This document shows positions 6,138 through 63,932 of a stretch of 64,000 nt of DNA, in pieces. Location of the stretch: assembly GCA_903813345.2 (NCBI GenBank), contig CAIIXF020000008.1, forward strand, positions 6,333,341 through 6,397,340, given 5' to 3'. Source of the stretch: Owenia fusiformis (taxonomy: Eukaryota; Annelida; Polychaeta; Sabellida; Oweniidae). A program made the translations under genes and the position numbers. Within the stretch, counting starts at the first letter, position 1. Every line of letters begins with the position of its first letter. The notes below the pieces were generated by a model. It did not search any database, was not told the DNA's origin, and saw only the letters and a list, made by a program, of their open reading frames with translations.

Positions 6138-6451
6138 TCAACACTCAATTCCATGTTTATCAAAGTTTCTCAATATAATTCCAATTTGTAGATGCACTTT
6201 CCCCATTGCAGTAGTCTGCAAATGGAACCTCTCTGCTCCGTTATATATGAGATCAGGGTTCCTTAATTGAGGGCCTCCACCCAGGAACATTTGAGATATC
6301 TGTTCCCGCATGGTACCTGTTGGTCGCCACGTTGGACACTCTATTGTATGTTGGCCGGGTGATGTAGGAATGTGACAAAATCCATAGCCGTAAAGTTCAT
6401 TCCGTCCAAACCCATCTTGATGCCAAACCTGGAAGTGGATCTTTGGCCATC
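6138..6451 (-). CDS. B9D2: B9D2 coding exon 3 (last)
   Basis: Starts after acceptor TTGCAG (6453-6452). The first two bases complete a Gly codon, then WPKIHFQVW. Ends at TGA (6140-6138). Confidence 0.95.
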
Positions 6452-8711
6452 CTGCAATGAAAGACATTTTGTAAATCAACATGCTTTCATTCATTCAATA
6501 TATCCAATTATCCATACACTAAAATTCCCTTCTAACCAGTCATTATAATTATAGTAAACCTGTGTTTTGGTTGTTGCATATAATACACAATTTTAAAAGA
6601 AAGTTACTTTAAATATTATACTAACACCAATTATCTGAATTTAAGGCATTTGGTGCATTCTTAAACCCTTGAATGTGGCGTGTGGTAATTATTAAAATAT
6701 TTTCTTATGATTGGAAATTTTTCTAGGTCACAATGACATGGCAGTATTTCTATATTGTCCAATTGAATAGCCTCATTTACGAGTTTAACTCGTATTAATT
6801 CAAGTCATGACATTCAGGAACAGAGTAAAATATAATTTTCCCGAATTTTAAATTTTACAGATGAAATATATTTATTTCACATATTTTTAAATTCATACAG
6901 ATTTAATTTAGCAAAAATGGTGTCCTCACAAAAATATATTCTTCTATATATATATTCTATAGTTTTTCAAATGAAATTTCAAAGTATGGTTCAATCATTT
7001 GCATTCTCAGGGCCAAAAGGCCTAAATGCGCCATAAGTAAGTCTACCTTGTAAGCCTTTAGTGGCAAAGTGCACATCTATAGGGTGAGCCCAGTAGGCCA
7101 TCTGACCATCTACTGGGGCGTCAACTTGAGTTTGACCATCTCGCATACCAGCAAGGATTTTCCAAGCACTTCCTGAAAACATAACAAAGTTTAAATATAG
7201 AGGCGTCAATTTTGTTTCCTGTTGGAATTTTTGGATTAGGCCCAAAAGGTTAAGTTTTGTGATAACCAGGGCAGGTACCACTAATTAGATATTTAATTTA
7301 TAAAGGCCTTAAGGATTTAAACATTTAATGATTTCTCTGAATGCTCCTTCAGTTAATCCAGTGAGTATAATTTTTCTTTTATGAACCATCCATTGACCAT
7401 TAATTGAAACATTGCTGACGTCATAGAGAATTAGTATGGGTGAGACCTACAGCTTCAAATTGTTTTTATTAGACCATTCTAGCTGAATATTAATCCTTGA
7501 ATACTGATTTATGTTACAATTGATCCATCTGATGAGTTGGGTTCATAAATGGACAGATAATGAGAAATGAAGTATCACCATGGTGGAAATTGATTTGGTT
7601 TATGTTTTAAATGATTTAAACATCCTCTGAGTAATTTATATTAAATCCAAAAAATAGTTCCAGGAAACAAAATAGATGTACATATTACATTATCATAAAT
7701 CAGAGATGTATGGGTGACAAAATTGAAAGCAATGTACAATTGACCATCTCAATCTATCTATAATCTATCTCCCAAAAGATCCATGATCCATGATATCTTT
7801 CTCAATTAAAATATGCCATTTCTTAAATCAAACTTTAAGTTGAAAAATATTGTTTCAAACCACATTTTCATATTTCAATATGAATGCACTGAGGTATGTA
7901 GAATAGAACATGATTATATTTTTCAACATTAAAATTCCTTCATTTACATATTACAAACAGTTTGGTATGCATGATGGACTACTTCTCTATATCAATTGCA
8001 TCACATATTATATGATTTAGAAAAAACACTACGGACTATGTAATATTTTGACAACCATAATTTTAAGATTTCTCAAAAATGGTGAATATGTAAATTACCT
8101 ACCAGCAAGGACAGATTGACAGAATCCTTAAGCTTACGGTACCAAATGTGTGCCAATAAAATGTATTTATTTGAGATTTAATTTTAGATACCTTTCATTT
8201 GTAATTCAGCTTAATAAAAGCATCATTTGAAGAGATCACAACACAAAGCAATTCCGCATTGGGCACCATTCATTGGTGGTCATTTTTGATTTTCTGAGGC
8301 AAGAAAGTCCACTTCTACATTTGGCAGCAATTTTTGAGACCTTTTGTTGTCTTTACTAATGTTATTCTACTTCAATTTAAAATGAAACACAATCATTTTG
8401 ACTTCATTAAATCACTGATCAAAAATTATCCAGCCATCTTCCTACCAAACATGGACACAATCAGCCAACTGGTATTTGAGTTATTGCCAGGATTGATTGA
8501 GTAACATATAACTCCACTAGAGCTAATCACTCTCATTGGGAGATACTTGTATGTAAAATACTACAACATTGTGGCAACATATCTTACCAGTCAAACATAC
8601 AAACAACCAATCAATGAATATACCTGTATGTATGCCCCATTTACAAAACAAGCTCTGGTCAGGAAATCCACTTGCTCCTACTAGTTGCCCAATCACATGA
8701 ACTTCAGCCAT
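6138..8711 (-). CDS. B9D2: B9D2, ciliary transition-zone B9-domain protein (complete)
   Basis: Coding exons complement(6138..6451, 7047..7172, 8624..8711), 528 nt, 175 residues, the same length as I recall for human B9D2. B9D2 is part of the B9/MKS complex at the base of cilia that gates entry of ciliary membrane proteins. Exon 1 gives [16 protein letters not shown] and FCKWGIHTG; exon 2 gives [25 protein letters not shown]; exon 3 gives the rest of the B9 (C2-like) domain, [24 protein letters not shown], and ends [11 protein letters not shown]. The paralogue B9D1 lacks this start and this C-terminus. All introns are GT-AG, both in phase 1 within Gly codons. The ATG at 8711-8709 is the only start giving the family N-terminus. 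A 5' non-coding exon ending at 10043 is likely. Confidence 0.96.
7047..7172 (-). CDS. B9D2: B9D2 coding exon 2
   Basis: Acceptor TTTTCAG, donor CAAG|GTAGAC. 126 bases, phase 1 at both ends. Encodes [19 protein letters not shown] through FATKGLQ. Confidence 0.95.
7173..8623 (-). other. B9D2 intron between coding exons 1 and 2
   Basis: 1.45 kb of AT-rich sequence. I saw no further exon or repeat with clear ends. The shorter intron 2 (6452-7046) is also plain. Confidence 0.7.
8624..8711 (-). CDS. B9D2: B9D2 coding exon 1
   Basis: ATG at 8711, donor ACAG|GTATAT at 8623. 88 bases, 29 codons plus one base. Encodes [16 protein letters not shown]... and KWGIHT. Confidence 0.94.
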
Positions 8712-33000: not shown

Positions 33001-36000
33001 AGTATGCATTGCATCATTTACATCAAAGTGAAATACTAAAATAGTTCATGTTTCATGCCATGTATTTTCTAAATATATTTATTGATCTGTAATTATAACG
33101 AAATCTATCGATTTGTGTGGGAGTAGAATTTGTTTAATGCAGAATAGCCCTATGGCAATTTGGAATCTACATTATAAATGTGGACTCATTTATAATATTG
33201 CATGTTACGAATCATTGTTTTGATAGTACTGTTTGATGCATGTGTATTTAGGATGTTCAATTTATAAAATATATAAGAGTTTTGTTAATTTTTCTGCTTT
33301 TCAACTAAATTTTGATGGCATACTCAACATTTCAACAAATATCGCAGTTATATCTATGCATATGAACTATGTCCCTACAAATGTTATTTCTTGGTATCTG
33401 CATAGCAGTTCCTTAAGGGCAATAAAATGAAAATGCAGTTAAATGCCCATGGCCATTTTGCTAGAGGAACAAATATTTGTTTTATACTAGACAGCATGTT
33501 TTCTTCAGGTCAATCACCATATTTTATAATTTTGTAGTTTTCAGTTATATGAAATGATTTGAAAGGTTAAAACTTGAAATTCTGTGAGCTACGTATGAAG
33601 TACACTGGTAGCATTTCCTCCACATATGTAGGGAGGGATTCCCTAAGAGGTTTCTCAATGATATCATTATCTAAAAAATCTATATGAAAATCTTGCTTAT
33701 GTTGACATATTTTCCTTTCCAGAGTATTTTAAATTGTTCCTTAAAAAAGGATGTTGAATATACCAATGCAAATCCGACCTTTCTGCATTGGACAACAGAA
33801 AAGAAAAAATTTGGCCTTACATTTCAAAGTCCTGCTGATGCCAAGGCCTTTGATAAAGAAATAAAAAAAGCCATTAAGGACCTTTTGGCAGGTAAGCAAC
33901 ACACAACTACTACTCTTTTATTATACTGTATTTGTACAATCTCAACTTGCCATAATGTCATTTATCGTTAAATTTCAATTCAATTCAATTTATTTATTTC
34001 ATAATTCTTATATAATATAAACTATAAAAACAAGCCGCTTTATCTTTAACGTAAATTACGTTAATTCCGAAGCTAATTCTAAATATTTAAGTGTAGAAAT
34101 CATTTATTTGGGAAACCAATCTCTAGCAAACGTTTTGGTCTAAAGTTGACTATGAAGAACTATATGAACAGTAAAACCTGTAAAGTGGAACATTTCTATC
34201 ATACAAAACCCCCATATTAAAGATCTAATAGCAAAGGTTTTGCAAAAATAAATCAATGTAGTATAAAACAAATGTATGTATAATGAAGAAATAAATATAT
34301 AATGAAAAAAATAGATATCTGTTTGTAATATTGGTATAAACTTATGATTAAAAAGTGTCACTATCTCTTTCATTTTTCAACAAATATAGGCTCACGTGAC
34401 ATGTGACGCGGGGCAGGCAATTTTGATCTATCGTAGACCATATCAGTATCAAATTGCTGATATTTCAACCTCGTCTTGCGAGGCCATTTTGATTTGAAAC
34501 ATCTTGAATTTGGTGTCAAAATGAAGCTGGTCACGCCCACTTTCAGAGTTATCAATGAATCATTTACTACGACTACTATATTCATTTAGGACGCGTGTAA
34601 AGTTAACCAATCAGAAAGACAATTGTTCCATATATGGCAGTTCATTAACATATTCAGTGTTTACTACTGCTTTTCGCGTCATGACAACACGAGTAGTAAC
34701 CAATCAAGATGCCGTATTTTATCACGTGAGTTCAGAGTGACACGCATGCGACATGTTGTCTGAGGTGATCGCGATGTTGAACAATTTCTTCTCGGAATTT
34801 GTCCAGAGAAATCAGCGATTCTAAATTAAGGTAGGATCTGCCATTTTTTCCTGTACAAGTTATAACTTATCTCTATCGAATCCTAAAGTTTTGGAAGAAG
34901 ATATGAAGCGTAGGTTTAAAAACGAATCGATTAATTTGACGATCTGATTTTGCAATTTGCAATGATTTGCAATGGCCAATTTACTGCAAGTCCAGTGCAT
35001 GTATTTGACAAGAGATAGCGCCAAGTCTTGTATCTAAATGCTTGTTCAGCCACTCAAAAACAAGATCCATATTTTCAAAATTTGATAACTTTGCAGAAAA
35101 CCTGTTTTCATAATCTGTTTTCCGCGTCTAGATTCAAACTGAGTATGATAATAGGATCGCTGGAATCTTCAGTCAATGGCAACGGGTCTTCATTCCAGAA
35201 CTCACATTTTTAGTTGATTCTCCGTCATACTTCTTGTCTAAAGTCCCCATATCTGCTCTCTTACTGCCATACTTGCATACATTTCCCCTCCTTAAATTGG
35301 CTTCATTCAAATTACACCCTCTCGCCGATTTATATAGCCATTTCCCAGAACCCGGGAATCAGAATCGCTGATGTTTGCCATATTGAACATATTATATGTA
35401 CTGTAATATCTGTACATTGCCTGCTACGCGTAATGGTCACGTGACTAGCACGATACAGGAAAAATGGGGAATTTCGAAACAACAATTTTTGGGCACTTTT
35501 ATTGCAAATTTCAGGTATTTATAAAGTGTTTGTGGTATAAAATATAATCCACAGACATAAATGAACATCCAAACTACATATTTCATTCAGTTTTGGAGCC
35601 TTTTTTGCTCTTAAATTAACATCTTTAAGTAAAACACTTTTGAAGTCCTTACTATCTGTTTTTTTTTATTTAACCTCTTATTGTATTATGTTTGCTGTTG
35701 TTGTGTCTTGACTCTTGGGGTAGTCTTGTCTTGTGGAACTATTGTCTCATTATATTTATTTGTTATGTCCACAGGTACATGTTATTAAACATCTGATGCA
35801 ATGACACAGGTTATGTAGCAAAATAGAGAAAAACAATTAAATGGGATGGATCAAGATTTATGTTTTATGTATTATTTTGGATTCATAATGTAATATAATT
35901 GTTAGCCACAAATAATTCAGCTCCAAGTTAAAATCACTTCCACCAGAAGAGGTATGAGGATGCAGGTGTCATCCATAATCATAAAAGAAAATAGTTCACT

Positions 36001-39000
36001 CATAATATTTCCGCAGTAATCGTCACCTGAAACCAGTCTGCTTATACAAGAAGGGAGCATCCTTGGGGACCCCTTAGAAGCAGGATACAAGTCTTTATAA
36101 TGAAATATCTCTGGGGACCCCTTAGCAGGATACAACTCTATTCTAAATTCTGCTTTTGAGCAGAAAGAAATTTTAAAATCCCATAGGTTCTAAAATAACA
36201 GGAAATGCTATTTTATCCCTTTGGAAGTTATATAGAAACACTTCTTTTAGTGTGAACTTTTAGTATGAGATTTAAAACTAGAAAATGGAATTAAAAAGCA
36301 TATCCACTGAAATATGATAATCAATCCCATCACAGAAAGAATTGAAAAATAGAATGTATTGGAGGGAGCTCATTGGCTAGATACTCTTTTTACTATCCTG
36401 GTATATTTTCAATTAATGAATGGAGGGGTTGATCCATATATTACATGTAGAATTATTTCAGTTTTGTTCAAAATTCATAGAGACACCATTTTTGAAACAA
36501 TAAGCAACCCCAAAATCGACAAAATCAATTTTCAACACCCATCTTAATATTAGTTTGGTCATACATTCCACATAAATCAACCTCAGCACCTTTAAGTTGT
36601 AATCAGATGAACATGAATAAGAACCTCATCTCTAATTTAAAAATCTCAATGGATATCAAAGTGTCCCCTCTAACAGCCAATAGTCCTTCTTTAATTACAA
36701 AATCTTGGAATGTAATTTAAAGTAGCTCTTCTCCGCTTTGCATCATTTACACACAACAACTGCTGGTTTGGCATTTTGTAAATCATATCATTAAGCGTGA
36801 GAAAAAGTTCTTTTTTATCTGTCTAACCATTAATGTTGCAAGATAAGATACGGTGGCTTATATTTAGATGGGAAGAGGAAACTGTATAGAGATTAGCACT
36901 TAACTGTCAGTTGGAAACTTACTGTGTTGCTAGGCTACCTTTCAAGTTCTGCTGAACTTTTTCTTCATTTCTGAGCTCTATGCAATACAAGTAACATTTT
37001 GCAGTGATTTTAATATTTTTCTGGTATGTGGTCATCTAATATAGATACGCATCAATATTTGTATTCTTTAAAAGTTCAAAATTATTCAGTATTTACAACT
37101 CAGGCTCAATTCTTAAAGGCTCCTATTTCATTCATATTAATCAGACCATTTAAAGGCACTTTTTATAGACACAAATGGAATTTTATGCCATTTAATGATT
37201 AAATTGAAAAGGAATATGGTGCCAGTAGGGTATATTATTATATAAATTGAAAGTCTATTATATTTTAACATGTTTTTGGTTTGAAAATATAAAATAAACG
37301 AGTAGTTATGGTAAAATTTTACTTTTTCTTTTATTACTCCTATGAGGATGTGGTTTTTCTGAGAGAAATGAAACCAATTATCTTAATATTAAACACAGTA
37401 CTTGCATGTTGACATTTTCATTTTTGAAACTTTTGTCGGGTTCAAAACTGAATTCAAAATTGTGTTCTTCAACGTAAAGGATGTCAGATTATGAATTTAC
37501 AATGAACTAAATGTTCATAGTGTCTGTCGGATTATAAATTTACAATTATCTAAATGTTCCGTATGGACGACAGTTAGGCTAAGTCTGTAAGCCTTAGATT
37601 AACTCTGAGGTTCTGATTGGAATTTGAATATAGCTTTAGAATTATTCACTTCCTGAACATATAGCTTTAGAATCCAAGCATTATTCACTTCTTGAACATA
37701 TAGCTTTGGAATTTGAGCATCATGCACTTCCTGTAAAGTGAACCTAAGCTTTGGAATCCGAGCATCATTCACTTCCTGTATATTTTGCTTTGGAATCTGA
37801 GCATCATTTACTTCCTGTATATATAACTGTATATTATATATGATAGTGATGTTATAATATCATTATAATTCCAGTCACAAAAATCATGAAAAATATAAAT
37901 TACCATGGAAACTAATAAAACCAAGAAACCCATTTTGGCAGGGCTTATAATACTTTACATGGAATATGTTTTGTTTAATTATTGGAACTTAATAATAATG
38001 ATATAAAACAAAAAATTATAGAAATGTGTTGAAAAACTGCCAACTGACAAACTTGATAAAGAAAATTCAATTTTAGCTAACATGATCTTAATTTTCCAAT
38101 AATTTCTATGATACAAAATATTTTTCATGAGATATATATATTTCATATACTCATACATTCATTTTGGGATTTCCATTCAGCTTTCTAGAAAACGGACTAA
38201 TTTGACCTTGTTAAGATGGTAAAGTAGGAGATAGGGAAATTGGGCTGAATGTGTAGGCGTTTGTACGTAAGATTTAAGGACTGTTTCACCGTAAGTTGCA
38301 GCTGTACCCAGTTTACAGAACTTTGCATTGGAAGTGCAATATTGGAACTTTGGTTAAGAGGTACATGAGGGTTTGCATACAGCTGCTTCAAAGTCCAGAC
38401 AGGAAAGAAACAGTATCTACTTCTATAGGAATCCTTGGAGTCTCAATGTCTTCGACAACAAATAATATTGACCCAGGGGGAGTTGTCTCTGGTTACCCAA
38501 TCAACAGTGCTTTTAACCCAGGAAGTGGGAACTACCTTGAGAATTAGTGTCCTTGATAGGCTAATAACTGTTTGTATCTTATTGGGTTTTGTTGTTTGTA
38601 ATCTGCTAAAATTGAAAAGAATAGAAAATTCTGTAAAAGTTTATAAAACTCGAAAATACCATCTATGATGAAATTAGTGAGTTAAGGGAGAATGAAAAGG
38701 TTACCCGTCACTATTTTAATTTTATCTGTTTTTAGACCTATAGTATAGTATTTTTGCCATTTTCTGAATGACACTATTTAAAACATATGCTTCTCAATCA
38801 TAAGATGCATGATTGATAAAATGAAGTGGATGGTGAGAAAGTGGAAAAGTCAGTGTGCCCCATCAGTATTTTAATATTTATATATTTAAAACTTAAAGTT
38901 CATTACCTATTTTTGTCATTTTCTGAATGACTTTGTTTGATTTGTATTAAAAACAATGACGTTCATGTGCAGTAGTACTATAAAAGTATTTGATTAATTG

Positions 39001-42000
39001 AATCTAAGTCTGGTCATTCATATCAGTTTCTGCTAATAAGGGAGAGAAAGTGGAAATCTACTTAAATATTAACTATTTAAAACCAAAGCATATTATATAT
39101 TTTTGCCATTTTCCGAATGACTTTGTTTGACTTGTATTAAAAACAATGACGTTTATGTGGAGTAGTAGTGTAAAAATAATTGATTAATTGTTACTTAGTC
39201 TGGTCATTCACTTTAGTTTCTGCTATTACATGGGAGGGTGAGAAACTGGAAATATACTTTATTATTGTCTATTTAAACCAAAGTGTATTCTATATTTTTG
39301 TCATTTTCTGAATGACTTTGTTTGACTTGTATTAAAAACGATGACGTTCATGTGGAGTAGTAGTGTAAAAATAATTGATTAATTGAGTCTTAGTCTGGTC
39401 ATTCATATCAGTTTCTGCTATAATAAGGGAGGGTGAGAAAGTGGAAAACTTTAGTATTATCTATTTAAATCCAAAGCATATTATATATTTTTGCCATTTT
39501 CTGAATGACTTTGTTTGACTTGTATTAAAAACGATGACGTTTATGTCGAGTAGTAGTGTAAAAATAATTGATTAATTGATACTTAGTCTGGTCATTCACT
39601 TTAGTTTCTGCTATTAGAAGGGAAGGTGAGAAAATAGAAAACTACTTTGGCATTATCCATTATTAAAACCTGAAGTATATTATCTATTTTTACAATTTTA
39701 TGAATGAATACTATATTAGGACAATGACATACTTGTTGTTGATTGGGGCAATAGTGATTGATTAATTAAACCCGTCTGGTCATAATGACTTTTGCATTCT
39801 CACTCTAATCTTAAAAGTACATGTGTAGAATTAACTTTATAGAAATTGTACTTATCCATACATAGCCCCTCGTTTCTAAAAACCAAGGATGGATCTGATC
39901 AGTGATAACTGAAATGTATACATTGAAGAACGTTTGCATTTGTTTTTCTCAAAACGTTCCTGTAATTATATTGTATGATTCTGAATACAATCTGTGCTGT
40001 TTACTTTTCGATCTTTTTTGGGATGGGATTTATGAAATGATTAAGAAAATATTGGTTGGTCTGGTTAATTATAAATGTGGCTTATGATTTTTGCACCCCT
40101 CTATGACAAATTCAAACTTTATCAAGTAGGTAAATACAAGGGGTGATCCAAAAATCTTAGACACCCTGCTCTAATTTTGTTGGTTAACAAAGTTAGATCG
40201 GGGGATCCAAGACTTTTGGGTCACCCCTCGTTCCTAGAGCCCTAGAGTTCCATATATACTTTTTTATTTGATATTTTGATTTTCAGTAAAACCTATCTGG
40301 TGGGACACCTTTCTTTAAGGAATGCCTGTCTACAAAGAACAGTTCAAAAGAACCAAATATTTTCCCATTGAATTACATGTTATAAGACCTTCTCTGTGAG
40401 GAACACATGTCAACTTGAAATAAGCAACAGTGTTATAAGGTCAAATTATGAAAATCCACCTGTTCACAAGGAACATGGTGTATTAGATATAGATATAGAT
40501 TAGGAAGCTGATTGTTGACATTTGACAAGCTGCGACATCCTTACCACTGTCAATTACCCCAATATTTTTTTTAATTAATCTGTTTGTTAAAAATTGCCAA
40601 TTGACACTAATGCTTTCTTTCAACAAATGTTGATCTCATCTGACAAGTTGAGATCCCAGGGACTGACACTACTCTTTTAGGAGATAATATAAATGTATTT
40701 GTGTCATATTGAACCAAATCTCATTAAATCTTTTAAAGATCCGATCTTTTTTTAGAAATATTATAGCATAGTTTGAGAAATACAGTCTTACACATACATC
40801 CCAGATTACTCATTCTATTTCACCTTCCTTAACGTTTATTATGTTGTGTGCTGTTGTCATGGTGATCTAATATGTTTACTTTCATCAGGAACTTTTTCAG
40901 ATAGATTTAACTTTTTAGGTTTTTTACAAATGTTCCATCATCAAGTTTTTATCTATTGTGTTATCTCATCGCTAATGATCAATGAATGATGTCACTAATA
41001 TATTTTCTTTTTATCTTTTGCATTCGAATTGGATTTTACAATTGGTAAGTGTGTATGCAGTTAGGTGTTTGTTTTTAACTAGAATGTTTCGAATTCAGTC
41101 TTCATCAAAAATTTACTCAAAAGCCTTTCTTGGCTATGAACAAATAAAACTATTGTGGCATAAAGATTTTATCATTATAAGCTACAATAGGTACTATTGT
41201 TTCATCTAACCATCTGAAAAGCGGCATAAAATATGTCTCAGCTTTAAGGTAGCGCAAGTAGAAGCTTTTTAAGAGACCCACACCATGGTAATGTTAAGGT
41301 AGACAAATTGGGATACCTTTTAGATCTACTTCTTTGTACAGTGTCATTATATGCAAGAATTATGTGTAAACGATTTATTCTCCAATTTTCACCATCAAAA
41401 GATGATAAATTTTTATTTTTTAAACTGATATTTACAAAAAAAGATGGCTTGTATTGGTAATGTCAAGTGGTAGGTTGTTGATTTTAATTCTGGCAATTTT
41501 AGGCTCAGAGTTAGTTACTGAGCTCCTTTAGTTATTTCCTTTACTTAATAAACATGGTGTAAATAATAATATATTTGTATATTTTCTCTTTGCAGGTCCT
41601 CACAATGCAGCTGAGGCGGGCGAAGATGATGTATTTATGGTGAGTTGGGTCTTTTAGTTTTTGGTATGACCATAACTTATGATTCCGAGAAATTGTAAAA
41701 AGGACCCCAGAGTTATAGCCACAGAATGTAATGTTATGATTTTCTGATTACAAATTCGGATTAGATATAAGTTAGAACAAAGACTTATCTCTTATAAAAT
41801 CTAAAGGTTAGATAAAATTGAGCTATTTTGGAGTTCAATATGTAAATGTTGTTGACCCCAAATCAACTGGGTGAACATAATTTGCAGTTCTCCCATTTGG
41901 AGGCAGTGGGTGGTAGATTTGACCACATGTGGAGCAAAATCAGTCTCTATATTTTCACAAATTTCGATTTTACTCGTACATGTGTATATGTTTTTAATAC

Positions 42001-43341
42001 CAGTGATGGCTTGTTTTGTTGTTATGGCAACAAGTTATAAGAATTAGCTGAGAAAACAATTAACTTAATTTAACATAGTTTTAGTTTGAAAGGTTTAATT
42101 TTATCTTGAATATTGTTGAACGTTAAATTGTATTGTCAGTATTTGACTTTTTGAATGAGAAATCATCTTGAGCGGCTCAAATGTCTGTAAAAAACTTGTA
42201 AGTTCCAATCCTTTTTTGACTGAAGGGCACTCTCTGGCACTGTACTGTCATTAATTATTAGTTAATAACCTTCTAAAGCTGTGTAGAGCCCTCAGGTGAG
42301 TTAGGATAGTCTCATCACTGTCATTATGAGATAGGATAGGTTCATCTTTGTCATATTCTAGCATATTAATAGATCTGTTATTTCCTGTCATGGTTTATAG
42401 ACTGTAATGCCATCTTTTGTGTGTTCCAGCAACTGAACCTGCCATGTAGGAAGGGTAGCAGCTCCCAGTCAGCAAGTACGGCTAGTACAACCACCAGCTC
42501 TCCCACCCCTCAATCCCCAGGCTTCTCACCCGCCTTTGCGGACCCATTCGCACAAACTTTCACAAATAGCCACAACAGGGACCATTTACATAGAGTTGTG
42601 TATTGGAGCTCTCCCAACTCTAAGCACTCATCTCCTGGTAGTGATAAATCAGGGGGTAGTAGTAAAAGTAACGAGGAGGTCTGGAAACTTCGCTCTGATA
42701 AAACAACTAACAGTGGTAAGGGAACTGGGGTGGGGTCTACTGGGGGAGTAGTGGGAAGCACAGATAATGCACCCGATGACAGCTATGTACAATTTGAACA
42801 CAACAGACCTAGTACACATGACTACTCTTATCCTATGTGCACATTGGATCCAGCATCCAACAAACATGTCTCAGGTAAAAGAGACAGTGTAGGCAGTATA
42901 AAAAAGAACAATTTGGAGTGTACAACCTCTCAACCTCCATTACCAATGAAAAATAAACATAAAAAACGGGATAAAATGGATAGTAAAAATAGGTTATTAG
43001 AGCGTTCACGGTGCGTATACTGTCATGAAGTATTTGTACATGATGAGAATCCACGAGGGAATTGTGAAGACGCCCCTGATCGGGTGGCAAACTGTATAGA
43101 AAAAGTTTCGTGCCTATCGTGTGCTCACTGCATGCTTTACCACTGTATGTCAGATCCTGATGGGGATTATGGTCATCTGTGCGTGTGTGATTCGAGTGAC
43201 GAGAACAATAGCAAGAAATGGACCGTATTAACGGTTTTGTCATTCTTCGTGCCGTGCCTCTGTTGCTACGGGCCACTCACAGCGTGCCACCGTTGTGGGG
43301 TGGCCTGTGGGTGCTGTGGGGGTCGGCACAAAGCAGTTTGA
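15045..43341 (+). CDS. SPRED: Spred, Sprouty-related EVH1-domain inhibitor of Ras-ERK signalling (complete)
   Basis: Coding exons join(15045..15067, 29937..30123, 33723..33891, 41596..41639, 42430..43341), 1335 nt, 444 residues, the length I recall for human SPRED1. Spred proteins bind neurofibromin through EVH1, reach the membrane through the cysteine-rich SPR domain and damp Ras-Raf-ERK signalling. Order: short N-terminus MTDGNMKNADDYLVRVKAQVM; EVH1 about residues 9-126, with NPTFLHWTTEKKKFGLTFQS and PADAKAFDKEIKKAIKD; Ser/Pro/Thr-rich linker; a KBD-like patch near 258-283 (YVQFE, THDYSYP); SPR domain about 335-440 (RCVYCHEVF, SCLSCAHCMLYHCMSD, VPCLCCYGPL, CHRCGVACGCCGG). Exon phases are 2, 0, 1, 0, all matching. 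It cannot be Sprouty because EVH1 is present. A single invertebrate Spred fits, so I give no paralogue number. Confidence 0.95.
16632..16930. repeat. Degenerate minisatellite, unit about 22-25 bp
   Basis: About 13 diverged copies of a unit like AAGGTAATTCTCAACTGAG. The array lies 1.6 kb inside Spred intron 1. Confidence 0.8.
18674..18773. repeat. MITE-like repeat, ATGTCACCACC family, copy 2
   Basis: Starts ATGTCACCACCAGAAGTGG, with the same terminal hairpin as copy 1 and the same following text (GATAGTCT, TTTTTGTGGACA). Right end GGTGGTGCATG is slightly decayed. Confidence 0.65.
19236..19365. mobile_element. MITE, CAGGCCCGTAGCCAGG family, copy 1
   Basis: Left CAGGCCCGTAGCCAGG, right CCTTGCTACGGGCCTG: inverted 16-bp ends with one mismatch. 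Interior has G tracts and AAAATCACTTGAGAAGTGCT, shared with the copies at 30218 and 30990. Confidence 0.75.
21056..21246. mobile_element. 191-bp palindromic MITE flanked by TA
   Basis: Two arms of about 85 bp are near-perfect inverted copies, sharing GAATGCAACTAACGCCTGTC and CATTTAAATATGAAT-like text near the centre. Termini are (G/T)CTGA-CTTGTAT. TA lies on both sides (21054-21055, 21247-21248), fitting a Tc1/mariner-type non-autonomous element. The whole insert could fold as one hairpin. Confidence 0.8.
21555..22870. repeat. 22-bp minisatellite, about 60 copies
   Basis: Unit AACAGAGGCCTACAACATAATG, period 22, with an AGGCCT palindrome in most units. Variants (TATGGC, GAAGCCTACAAGATAATC, GCGTAATAAGC) recur in the same order near 22390, 22597 and 22664, so blocks of several units were duplicated together. 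Confidence 0.92.
24575..24695. repeat. CATACCA/ATCATACCAC low-complexity repeat
   Basis: Irregular runs of CCATACCATACCA and ATCATACCACA, without a fixed period. Confidence 0.7.
28217..28379. mobile_element. MITE, CAGTAAAACC family, copy 2
   Basis: Left TA|CAGTAAAACCTGTCTC, right GGTTTCACTG (28370-28379). 163 bp, interior AAAGTGTTCCACTTGGGAGG and TTCAGTTGGTCTTGG shared with the element at 2517. Confidence 0.7.
28549..28680. repeat. A-rich tandem repeat, unit about 33 bp
   Basis: Four diverged copies of a unit like CTAAAATGTTGCACAAAAAA followed by a TTACAAAAT run. Confidence 0.65.
29005..29475. repeat. TATCATATCACCTATGT-type minisatellite
   Basis: Many imprecise copies of TATCATATCACCTATG. 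Open frames across it (Tyr/Ser/Leu-rich) are an effect of the repeat. It ends 460 bases before Spred exon 2. Confidence 0.85.
29937..30123 (+). CDS. SPRED: Spred coding exon 2 (EVH1, first half)
   Basis: Acceptor TATATTTCTAG (29935-29936), donor GAA|GTAAGTG. 187 bases. Encodes ADDYLVRVKAQVM through IYGQRISDHE, matching the start of the Spred EVH1 domain. Confidence 0.93.
30218..30332. repeat. MITE, CAGGCCCGTAGCCAGG family, decayed copy 2
   Basis: Shares TTTTGGCCCAAAATCACTTG and GTAAAGTGCTC with the 19236 copy and ends ACTACGGGCCTG. The left end is eroded. Confidence 0.6.
30767..31252. repeat. Inverted-end segment AAAGGACCAGGT containing a reverse MITE copy
   Basis: AAAGGACCAGGT at the left faces ACCTGGTCCTTTA at the right. 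Inside, 30990-31107 is a reverse-orientation copy of the CAGGCCCGTAGCC family (GAGCACTTGTCAAGTGATTT, GGGCCAAAGT, TACAGGCCCG). Confidence 0.55.
33723..33891 (+). CDS. SPRED: Spred coding exon 3 (EVH1, second half)
   Basis: Acceptor TTTTCCTTTCCAG (33721-33722), donor GCAG|GTAAGC. 169 bases. Encodes SILNCSLKKDVEYTNANPTF, KKFGLTFQSPADAKAFDKEI and AIKDLLA, the most conserved part of Spred EVH1. Confidence 0.96.
34380..34835 (+). promoter_or_regulatory. Possible internal promoter / alternative first exon of Spred
   Basis: Locally richer in CpG than its surroundings, with CACGTGA E-boxes (near 34391 and 34721), two CCAAT boxes (AACCAATCAGA near 34598, AACCAATCAAG near 34697) and a downstream donor AATTAAG|GTAGGA near 34830. 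A transcript from here would join exons 4 and 5 and lack EVH1. Motif-based inference. Confidence 0.3.
37620..37825. repeat. Tandem repeat, unit about 39-50 bp
   Basis: Five imperfect units of ATAGCTTTGGAATC followed by GAGCATCATTCACTTCCTGT. Confidence 0.7.
38690..39770. repeat. 190-bp tandem repeat, five to six copies
   Basis: The segment TTTTTGCCATTTTCTGAATG recurs near 38750, 38911, 39100, 39294, 39488 and (decayed) 39685, about 190-195 bases apart. Units also share GTATTAAAAACAATGACGTT, ATAATTGATTAATTG and AGTCTGGTCATTCA. Confidence 0.88.
40137..40231. mobile_element. 95-bp hairpin MITE
   Basis: Arms ACAAGGGGTGATCCAAAAAT and its inverse ...TTTTGGGTCACCCCTCGT pair along about 42 bases around a GGTTAA loop. 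Confidence 0.65.
40284..40480. repeat. CAGTAAAACC-family element, decayed
   Basis: Left end CAGTAAAACCTATCTGG followed by GGGACACC and repeated GAACAC/GGAAC text typical of the family. The right end is unclear. Single left ends of the same type occur at 17240 and 34169. Confidence 0.45.
41596..41639 (+). CDS. SPRED: Spred coding exon 4
   Basis: 44-base exon after TTTTCTCTTTGCAG, donor ATG|GTGAGT. Encodes GPHNAAEAGEDDVFM in the linker. Phase 1 in, phase 0 out, which agrees with both neighbours. Confidence 0.88.
41640..42429 (+). other. Spred intron 4
   Basis: 0.8 kb, phase 0. Contains one RFX X-box-like motif, GTTGTTATGGCAAC, at 42018-42031. Otherwise plain. Confidence 0.6.
42430..43341 (+). 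CDS. SPRED: Spred coding exon 5 (linker, KBD-like patch, SPR domain)
   Basis: Acceptor TTGTGTGTTCCAG (42428-42429), stop TGA at 43339-43341. 303 residues. Starts QLNLPCRKG, then a low-complexity Ser/Thr/Gly linker, and ends with the cysteine-rich SPR domain GCCGGRHKAV. Confidence 0.95.
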   Translation, partial: QLNLPCRKGSSSQSASTASTTTSSPTPQSPGFSPAFADPFAQTFTNSHNRDHLHRVVYWSSPNSKHSSPGSDKSGGSSKSNEEVWKLRSDKTTNSGKGTGVGSTGGVVGSTDNAPDDSYVQFEHNRPSTHDYSYPMCTLDPASNKHVSGKRDSVGSIKKNNLECTTSQPPLPMKNKHKKRDKMDSKNRLLERSRCVYCHEVFVHDENPRGNCEDAPDRVANCIEKVSCLSCAHCMLYHCMSDPDGDYGHLCVCDSSDENNSKKWTVLTVLSFFVPCLCCYGPLTACHRCGVACGCCGGRHKAV

Positions 43342-52982: not shown

Positions 52983-52988
52983 TTTATT
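52983..52988 (-). terminator. Poly(A) signal for the intronless gene
   Basis: AATAAA on the minus strand, 213 bases past the stop codon at 53201. A second lies near 52927-52932. Confidence 0.45.
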
Positions 52989-53200
52989 ATTGTTTCTTTT
53001 TATTTCCTATTTAACATGGAGTACAAACATATATGAATAAATACTTTAATTATGCATAATAAACGTAACATTGGATATAACAAACTATCTAAAAACAAAA
53101 CAATTCTCAAAAATGTCAATAACAAGATAACATATCTAAAAATTACAAAAAATGTAAGGGAAAGAAAAATATCTGTCCCACCTATCCAGGCCTAATAGGG

Positions 53201-55003
53201 TCAAGTTTTCTTTTTAGACTTATGGGTCATTTTCTTCAATTGCCCTTTTGATTCTATTTCTAACCATTTGTGCATCTCTGATGAGCCTTTGCTACCAATT
53301 GGTGACTTATTCACATTGATCTGTCCGTTTCCTAACATTGTCTCGTCTGCACTCATCCTTCTGTCTCGTATGGAGTTAAAGAATGTTGACATTGTCTGAA
53401 ATGAGGCAGAATTTTTCCTTGTTAAGGGGGGTTTATCTGGTTGAGCTGAATGTAGTTTTTCTGAGCTGCCAGCGAGCAGGTCGATGTTCTCAGAGGAAGA
53501 CATTGATGTCCTTCTCTTAGATAACTCAGGTGGTTGTAAAAGTTGACATCTTGAAAGGGAATTGAGTGGTAAAGAAACTCTGCGATTTAATAATCTTTCA
53601 GAAGGTCTATTACTCTCTCCATGGAGGCTGTCTGTCGAGTCCACTATGCTTGGTGTTAAAGTTGTTCTGAGGTTAGGCACATTGGCTAATGGAGATCTCG
53701 GAGACCGTTGACTGGATAGAGACTCATTAGATGCATTTGGGCTAAATGAAAAAGTTTTCTTTTGGAGCACACGATTTTTGAGGTCATCATAATTTTCTGG
53801 TTTCTTAGGCCATGTTCCACTTCTTCTTCGACCTAAGCCGTGACCATCCATGTCAAAATTTGGAGATGATGGATTAGATATGGAAAGTCTACGGTTGTTT
53901 AAATGTCCCATTCTTTGTTGTTCATTAGTCTGACTGATTTGAATCATTGGAACTTCTTGTACAAGAGGCAAATGCTCAACATTCTCAGTTCCAAGTCTAT
54001 GATGATGCGTACCTTGTTCGTTGGCTGAATGTCCATCTTTATTGTCACTCCCATGCTTCTTCATCCGACTTTTATGTTGGGCATGGATGCCTTTTGGTGG
54101 ATGTGGAACATGAGCTCTGGTTATATTTGAGTTTTCTGCACAATGTTTAGTTGAATTTTCCTCTTTGATTTGTGCATCATCATCCTCCTCGAGTTCAATC
54201 GTATTAATCTCAATGGTTTCCGAATCACCAAAGTGTACATGAACATTCTTATGGCTCTTTCCAGGGTGTAAGTGTTTGTAACTGGGCAATGAATGTGGCA
54301 CATGTGAGTGGACAACTTCATAATGTGAATCATTATCATCATCCTTGTTTGGTTCATCGACAGTCAGCCTGTTTGGTTCAGTAAGTTGAGACACGCATGA
54401 CTTGTCATCCTTGGTCATATGAGTAACATATGTGCCACAGTTATCATTATTGGTATTGTTGGTTTCACCATTATAATTTACCATATTGTTGTCGTGAACA
54501 TCTGCATCATTGTGTCCAATTTTAGAAGAACTTTCCTCAAGGGGAGCATCTTCTAGCTCTTTGTATTCTTGATTGGAGGGATTGTCAGTTTGATTACTGT
54601 GTTGTGTCTCTCTAAGCATTATTTCTCTCTGGGCCTGTGAATCGGAAAGAACGGTTCTTAGAAGAGCTTTTGCTTTATCAGCAGGAAGACAAATCCTGTT
54701 GTTTTCTGGAAGTATTGTTTCTTCAACAGTTTTAGTATAAAACCGATTACCATGTGATTCTTGAGCTTCATACTTTTCACGAATTATTTCTCCTTTACGA
54801 TGGTTTATTTTTGATAAATGTTTCTCCATATCTTTCTGTGCATGTATGATCATATCCAATGATCTACGTCTCTCCAATACAATTTGTGAGATCCCTTTAT
54901 CATCAATTCTCTTTTGAACATCACTCAATTTCACAGCTTGTCTTTCAGATTCACTCAAAACCTGATCTCCTATTGAATTATGTTGAACATGTTTAAATTT
55001 CAT
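53201..55003 (-). CDS. Unrecognised intronless protein, 600 aa, rich in basophilic kinase motifs
   Basis: Single open frame from ATG (55003-55001, context CCAAAATGA) to a minus-strand stop at 53201; an in-frame TGA lies 21 bases upstream of the ATG. I know no family. Residues about 17-115 are charged and probably helical (QKRIDDKGISQIVLERRRSL, KDMEKHLSKINHRKGEIIRE). A polar, Asn/Asp-rich middle follows, then a His-rich region (VVHSHVPHSLPSYKHLHPGK) and an acidic run (IELEEDDDAQIKEE). The C-terminal 250 residues are Ser-rich and basic with RRLS, RRRS, RRVS, KRRTS and RRMS, ending in a lysine cluster KSKKKT. With RRRS near residue 48 this makes six PKA/AGC-type sites. No signal peptide or membrane segment. 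The length of open frame and low-repeat coding bias make it real; function unknown. It could be a retrocopy-derived or lineage-specific gene. Confidence 0.85.
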   Translation of the reverse strand: MKFKHVQHNSIGDQVLSESERQAVKLSDVQKRIDDKGISQIVLERRRSLDMIIHAQKDMEKHLSKINHRKGEIIREKYEAQESHGNRFYTKTVEETILPENNRICLPADKAKALLRTVLSDSQAQREIMLRETQHSNQTDNPSNQEYKELEDAPLEESSSKIGHNDADVHDNNMVNYNGETNNTNNDNCGTYVTHMTKDDKSCVSQLTEPNRLTVDEPNKDDDNDSHYEVVHSHVPHSLPSYKHLHPGKSHKNVHVHFGDSETIEINTIELEEDDDAQIKEENSTKHCAENSNITRAHVPHPPKGIHAQHKSRMKKHGSDNKDGHSANEQGTHHHRLGTENVEHLPLVQEVPMIQISQTNEQQRMGHLNNRRLSISNPSSPNFDMDGHGLGRRRSGTWPKKPENYDDLKNRVLQKKTFSFSPNASNESLSSQRSPRSPLANVPNLRTTLTPSIVDSTDSLHGESNRPSERLLNRRVSLPLNSLSRCQLLQPPELSKRRTSMSSSENIDLLAGSSEKLHSAQPDKPPLTRKNSASFQTMSTFFNSIRDRRMSADETMLGNGQINVNKSPIGSKGSSEMHKWLEIESKGQLKKMTHKSKKKT

Positions 55004-55093
55004 TTTGGACAAAGTCTTTGCTCATCTTAAATTCTTCCTACCTGGAAATTGTTTGTTGTTCTTGATATGATTGCTTGTTATTTGTATCGCAAC

Positions 55094-55102
55094 TTATTTA
55101 TA
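55094..55102 (-). promoter_or_regulatory. TATA box of the intronless gene
   Basis: TATAAATAA on the minus strand, 91 bases before the ATG, placing the start of transcription near 55068. A TATA box suggests regulated rather than housekeeping expression. Confidence 0.5.
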
Positions 55103-56870
55103 ATATATTATACATGTACCGATTGATCTCACTCCCTTGTTAAGGCAAGTTGGCGCTGTATCAAATGTTACACAGGTAACGCCTTGTAAATAAGTTCTAA
55201 GGATAAGTCATTCAAGCCTCAAACAATACAAAGTTGAAAGTTAATTCTGGTCGAGTAGATCAAATGCTTTAAGCTATGAGATTATAGCAGATTAAATTGT
55301 CAACAACATCCATGCTATAATATTCATGGATTTAAGTACACACATCGAAATAAACTGAAAAAGTTACATAAAGATATTATTGTCAATGCAATATTCAATA
55401 TAATATAAAATTAGCTTATATTTCAAATTCAAGCTGCTGTAAACATCTTACATGAACCTTTCATGTTTTAGTGTAGAGTTCAAACAACAAGCTAAAAATA
55501 TAATTATATTTCCAGTTACTTCATGATCTCATTTGTTTGACCTTACAAAAGAACCTTGAGTTAAAAACATGTTGACAAAATGACTGAACACTTTCAAAAA
55601 ATTCTCCAGATCAAAGCACCAGCTTCAACACCCTTCTCAATGGACATTAATGGCATAATTTAAAATACAAGCACCTTTGTTTAGTGTTTCACTTCGATGT
55701 TGCACTTTTTTTAGGTTTTAGAAGGTTTTGCCGATATTTTGGTCTGGTTGTTCCAAATTGCATTCTTCCCTGTAAATATTACAGCACAGGTGAGTGACTT
55801 GCCATCTTTTTAAATGCGCTAGTCATGGTGCTTACTAATACAGCAATTCTTAAGCATAATGATGGATCAAATTGCAGGATGTGATTTATTTTTAAAATTG
55901 AGACATTTTGTATGTTTTCTACAACCCCTTCATGAAAATGTTGTCCCAGTTTGGTGCATAAAGGGCAATGTGTTCAGACGGCTTATTCAGCGAAATTATT
56001 TTAATCTTTCGAGGCAGTGTGCAATATAAGGTAGAATACAGTATTTAGTTAAGACCTACTTTCAGGGATTTATATACTGTTAATCAGTATTACGCTTAGT
56101 GTCAGAGTAAAAATTGGTGATAATAAGTAAATTCCATAACATTTCTAATATTTTCAAATTATTTCTCATTCATTCTTAATTTTTATTTAAACATTTTTAC
56201 TTAGTAAATCCATCCAGGGGCATTGCAGTCAGTAACAAGATATGAGCAAGGGCAAGGCAACTGGTTCACCATAGTTTTACAGAAAAATATTTTTGTGAAT
56301 AAAACTATTGATTTGAAGTCCAATTATAGAATTTAATCCCCTTTGTCCTCATTTTGCCTATTTTAAGATCCCGGATGAGATATGTTGTCATAAGCAACAT
56401 GGGATTTTACCTCCTTTAAATAATACTTCCCTTGTATATATGTACCTATATATTCAAACATTTTTACTTAGTAAATCCATCCAGTGGCCTTAAAGTCAAT
56501 AACAAGATATGAGCAAGGGCAAGGCGACAGCTTCACCATAATTTTTGTGAATAAAACTAGATTGCAAAAGCTCATGTTATTACAAATGTATAAATTGATT
56601 TTTGAATCCAAAACTATACTGGAGAAGCTTGGATGGACATATCATCAAATATTTCAAATCTGCATTAGTGACGGTCAGATTGATTTTATACCTCGCACCA
56701 TGACAAAATATTTACAGTATACGCAGAGATCATATTGCATCACAAATGGTTATTCGTTGTTATAAAAGGGGCGATCCATATATTCTGATAAAAATGCTCT
56801 CATTTTGTGTGTTTTTCACATATCCCTCTCATTTTTTCAGAAAATGTAGATTATGTAATTACACATACAA
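55103..56870. other. Intergenic with a direct duplication
   Basis: No gene recognised. 56186-56310 and 56452-56565 are related direct copies sharing ACATTTTTACTTAGTAAATC and AACAAGATATGAGCAAGGGC. Confidence 0.6.

Positions 56871-60601: not shown

Positions 60602-63932
<3,331 letters not shown>

Follow-up and report, generated by a model that had tools for sequence, protein, structure and literature searches.

What is encoded by a gene whose 600-codon frame runs uninterrupted in a neighborhood of ordinary multi-exon genes? The question arises in Owenia fusiformis, in a stretch of 64,000 nucleotides that is analyzed here as a whole and referred to as the window. The gene and its conserved neighbors are located as follows (window positions).

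53201–55003, minus strand: single-exon open reading frame (ORF) of 600 amino acids, ATG to stop, from the ORF listing with translation.
6138–7284: B9D2-like gene, exons of a B9 domain.
33675–43341, plus strand: SPRED-like gene with WH1 and Sprouty domains.
60612–63932, minus strand: PSMC4-like gene with an AAA domain.

A ZIP-family transporter exon completes the set of ordinary multi-exon neighbors, and the names SPRED, PSMC4, and B9D2 are readings from domain and sequence. The first-pass annotation described the conserved genes of this region as split by introns, and the SPRED-, PSMC4-, and B9D2-like genes do lie in exons. The last exon of the PSMC4-like gene ends in HEFYK, approximately 5.6 kb upstream of the 600-amino acid gene. 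In humans, SPRED3, PSMC4, and B9D2 are all found on 19q13; given that their counterparts occur together in the window, the three may represent an ancient linkage. The window also harbors a direct repeat of 104 bases (56184–56287 and 56451–56554, 87% identical, spacing 267).

The frame is very probably coding. An in-frame stop directly precedes the ATG, such that the stop-to-stop frame (53201–55021) spans 606 codons, compared to 163 codons for the longest stop-free run in simulated 64-kb windows (n = 30, first-order Markov). Codon usage lends no extra support to the coding status. The log-likelihood per codon is −1.086 with the usage of the conserved neighbors and −1.059 with plain base composition, so that the base composition of the window fits the synonymous codon usage slightly better; GC3 is 0.30, versus a comparison value of 0.39. 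This indistinct usage would suit a non-functional or recently decayed frame that yields no product. However, the 606 stop-free codons contrast with the 31 and 74 stops of the strand's remaining two frames, and together with the enrichment of kinase-type motifs described below they render decay very improbable.

Candidate transcript signals are found on either side of the frame.

55095–55102, minus strand: TATAAATA, a TATA-like sequence starting 99 bases before the ATG (motif scan).
55036–55044, minus strand: CAG/GTAGGA (CAG, then GTAGGA), a 5′ splice-donor-like site in the presumed 5′UTR, with the G of GT at 55041.
52983–53004, minus strand: poly(A) signal AATAAA, present twice, at 196 and 212 bases past the stop.

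The spacing of the TATA-like and poly(A)-signal sequences relative to the ORF is sensible. A TATA box had been proposed for this gene, and a match is indeed present; however, because the consensus is common in this AT-rich window (0.79 per kb per strand), TATAAATA constitutes weak evidence for one. The gene had also been described as intronless, which holds for the coding region, uninterrupted in the sequence, but is qualified by the donor-like site at 55041, a strong match 38 bases before the ATG. A second donor-like site occurs within the frame at 54012 and an acceptor-like site beyond the stop at 53135. The 5′UTR may contain an intron, or an alternative transcript may lack part of the frame. 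An upstream ORF of 10 codons (MSKDFVQNEI) at 55025 overlaps the start codon of the 600-amino acid ORF, and a role in translational control is possible.

Does the product belong to a recognized family? The earlier view that it does not is in agreement with the profile searches, in which the whole protein has no match in Pfam, NCBIfam, or PHROGs at E values up to 10 and the helical part alone has none in Pfam at E values up to 1. Neither the PDB nor the viral (IMG/VR) and prokaryotic (GTDB) contigs contain a relative. A search of the O. fusiformis genome itself (498 Mb in 525 contigs, 12 of them large) returns only the self-match and no second copy, and therefore no retrocopy parent is detected, multi-exon or otherwise. 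The term “orphan” is used here in the sense of having no relative in these collections, i.e., Pfam, NCBIfam, PHROGs, PDB, the viral and prokaryotic contigs, and the species' own genome. Two marginal hits were discarded: a match on contig C4 (E = 1.55) that falls in what its sequence indicates to be an unrelated DDE (pogo/Tigger-like) transposase frame, and a single match in a fold search with the helical part (E = 7.6), which is meaningless. Literature searches on intronless PKA-substrate genes returned nothing on this gene.

No poly(A) tract is seen downstream of the stop, and no long direct repeats, such as transposon or LTR flanks would give, bracket the frame. With the missing multi-exon parent, these observations led to rejection of a recent retrocopy; a viral or bacterial origin was likewise rejected on the basis of the IMG/VR, GTDB, and PHROGs searches. 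Within the sensitivity of these searches, there is no sign of a horizontal origin or of a surviving parent copy. A different account is that the gene is the orthologue of a known animal protein but has diverged so far, through drift of its disordered sequence, that the relationship can no longer be recognized, or that it is an old retrocopy that has replaced its multi-exon parent. Fast divergence is typical of disordered proteins, the confidently predicted N-terminal helix suggests a constrained domain, and the searches covered the species' own genome, PDB, Pfam, NCBIfam, PHROGs, and the viral and prokaryotic collections only. Yet Pfam remains empty even at the permissive thresholds given above, and the lack of a second copy in the genome, a poly(A) tract, and long flanking repeats counts against it as well. 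This account is possible but on balance doubtful.

The genome search yielded several observations in their own right. At least nine Hox genes, each on the plus strand, are clustered at C1:17970805–18468329; their homeodomains include what we take to be the Lox5 (KLTGPP), UbdA-type Lox2/Lox4, and Post2 signatures of spiralians. Open frames with single homeoboxes, mostly of about 300–360 amino acids, form arrays at C5:39469706–39483441, C1:58459690–58471354, and C4:25513198–25518951, which suggests local expansions, and a small contig (C262:14791–17163) carries four homeodomain matches within one open frame of 1717 amino acids. Mitochondrial COX1 was not found in the assembly. Nine large contigs carry forkhead matches, which form tandem groups on C8 and C10; for O. 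fusiformis, 35 Fox genes distributed over nine of the 12 chromosomes have been reported, with foxQ2 genes in tandem on two chromosomes (PMC9539403).

What kind of protein does the frame specify? AlphaFold2 predicts two N-terminal helices followed by a long segment of low confidence.

54716–54952, minus strand: long charged N-terminal helix, codons 18–96, with RRRS at residues 45–48 (AlphaFold2).
54596–54682, minus strand: second predicted helix, codons 108–136 (AlphaFold2).
53969–54331, minus strand: His-rich disordered middle, codons 225–345, with 20 His in 121 residues.

The first helix spans residues 18–83 in a model of the N-terminal part, with a one-residue break at 37, and 18–96 in the full model; its pLDDT block means reach 98, without an alignment. 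In the best heptad register, L, I, V, M, and F make up 41% of the a/d positions and 18% elsewhere, making the helix a candidate coiled-coil or single-helix segment. From residue 137 to 600, nearly all pLDDT values are below 50, although, with no alignment supplied, low confidence argues less strongly for disorder than it would have done with a deep alignment. The composition, rich in S, N, K, and E with 9 Phe, 8 Tyr, and 2 Trp among 600 residues, agrees with predicted disorder after residue 136. The charged helical N-terminus, the His-rich middle, and, at the level of prediction, the disorder of the first-pass annotation are thus all recovered.

The most distinctive property of the protein is its cluster of basophilic-kinase motifs. 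All six that had been listed are present: RRRS at residue 45, RRLS at 371, RRRS at 392, RRVS at 474, KRRTS at 496–500, and RRMS at 548, and RKNS at 529 constitutes a seventh site.

53348–53893, minus strand: disordered tail with RRLS, RRRS, RRVS, RRTS, RKNS, and RRMS, codons 371–552.

Against a null of composition shuffles of the protein itself, six RRxS are observed where 0.26 are expected, and none of 20,000 shuffles reaches six. With local composition, residues 361–600 contain five versus 0.30 expected. Every Arg-Arg pair of the protein is part of an RRxS. The Arg and Ser codons of the sites are mixed and the sequence contexts differ, and therefore the sites are not copies of a repeated DNA unit; no tandem repeats were found. 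The enrichment of RRxS in the predicted tail is strongly supported as non-random. The five RRxS and the RKNS of the predicted disordered tail would be accessible to kinases; in contrast, the RRRS at 45 sits within the confidently predicted helix and would be a poor substrate.

The identity of the kinase is less constrained than the cluster itself. RRxS-type sites are also used by basophilic kinases other than PKA, and the same layout could serve PKG, PKC, CaMKII, RSK/Akt, or PAK. RxxS is common to these kinases, and two matches to the Akt/RSK-type RxRxxS/T, at 392 and 546, fit such an assignment. However, the doubled Arg at −3/−2, a classical PKA preference, is present at six of six sites, and a tail kinase other than PKA is considered unlikely. 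Thus, the earlier proposal of a disordered substrate of PKA or a related kinase stands with respect to predicted disorder and motif enrichment but not as a choice of PKA over PKG, PKC, CaMK, RSK, or any further basophilic kinase.

Other short motifs bear on whether the protein might also dock its enzymes.

53933–53950, minus strand: PMIQIS, calcineurin PxIxIT-like, codons 352–357, of a kind present in approximately 7% of shuffles.

An AKAP-like scaffold would dock PKA RII through helix 108–136 and calcineurin through residues 352–357, with the tail as a shared substrate. Residues 111–122, inside the predicted helix, fit a loose AKAP RII-binding pattern, PMIQIS fits PxIxIT, and PKA-type RIIa docking domains are encoded in the genome. 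Nevertheless, 14% of shuffles also match the AKAP pattern, no LxVP motif was found in the motif scan of the protein, and helix 108–136 does not fit the complete AKAP consensus, LxxxAxxIVxxAIxxA (PMC3682517). Such a scaffold is improbable. The more specific version, a lineage-specific, self-contained cAMP/calcium scaffold that recruits PKA via helix 108–136 and calcineurin via PMIQIS to act on its own tail, is based on the same two matches, both inside the shuffle range, and is more improbable still. The motif scan of the protein also found no PP1 RVxF, KEN, FxFP, or DSGxxS, and its matches to D-site, SIK, and D-box patterns are at chance level.

The preferred reading, offered tentatively at somewhat less than an even chance, is that of a lineage-restricted or fast-evolving gene for an N-terminal helical protein whose tail would be phosphorylated at multiple sites by a basophilic kinase, most likely PKA. 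The long helical segment, probably self-associating, would bear a 460-residue disordered tail. Upon a rise in cAMP, several tail sites (RRxS and the one RKNS) would be phosphorylated, with PKA as the first candidate. The added phosphates would alter the charge of the tail and possibly create docking sites for 14-3-3, e.g., at RRVSLP, which matches, marginally, the form Rxx[pS/pT]xP (PMC8786283). Either change could then switch binding to a partner or relocate the helical core. Each step past the motif count is one that we infer, as are expression, kinase identity, self-association, and partners. O. fusiformis is used in studies of animal life cycles, and stage-resolved transcriptomes have been published.

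Three known systems invite comparison. Animal orphan or lineage-specific single-exon genes share the one-exon coding region, predicted disorder, and absence of a recognized family; however, 600 amino acids is long for a gene of de novo origin. AKAPs resemble the protein in that it has a short helix fitting a loose RII-binding pattern and many PKA motifs, and differ in that this match is at chance level and the full LxxxAxxIVxxAIxxA is not fitted (PMC3682517). Disordered multisite PKA substrates with 14-3-3 sites are similar in their clustering of RRxS in a predicted tail and in RRVSLP (PMC8786283), a likeness in how the proteins would work, whereas no sequence kinship to any of them was found in Pfam, PDB, or NCBIfam. 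If expressed and phosphorylated as predicted, the protein would be an output, possibly restricted to its taxon, of a kinase pathway that is itself ancient, and it would exemplify how a disordered protein gains clustered kinase sites. The disordered multisite kinase substrate is a well-known kind of protein, and the motif cluster here is unusually clear.
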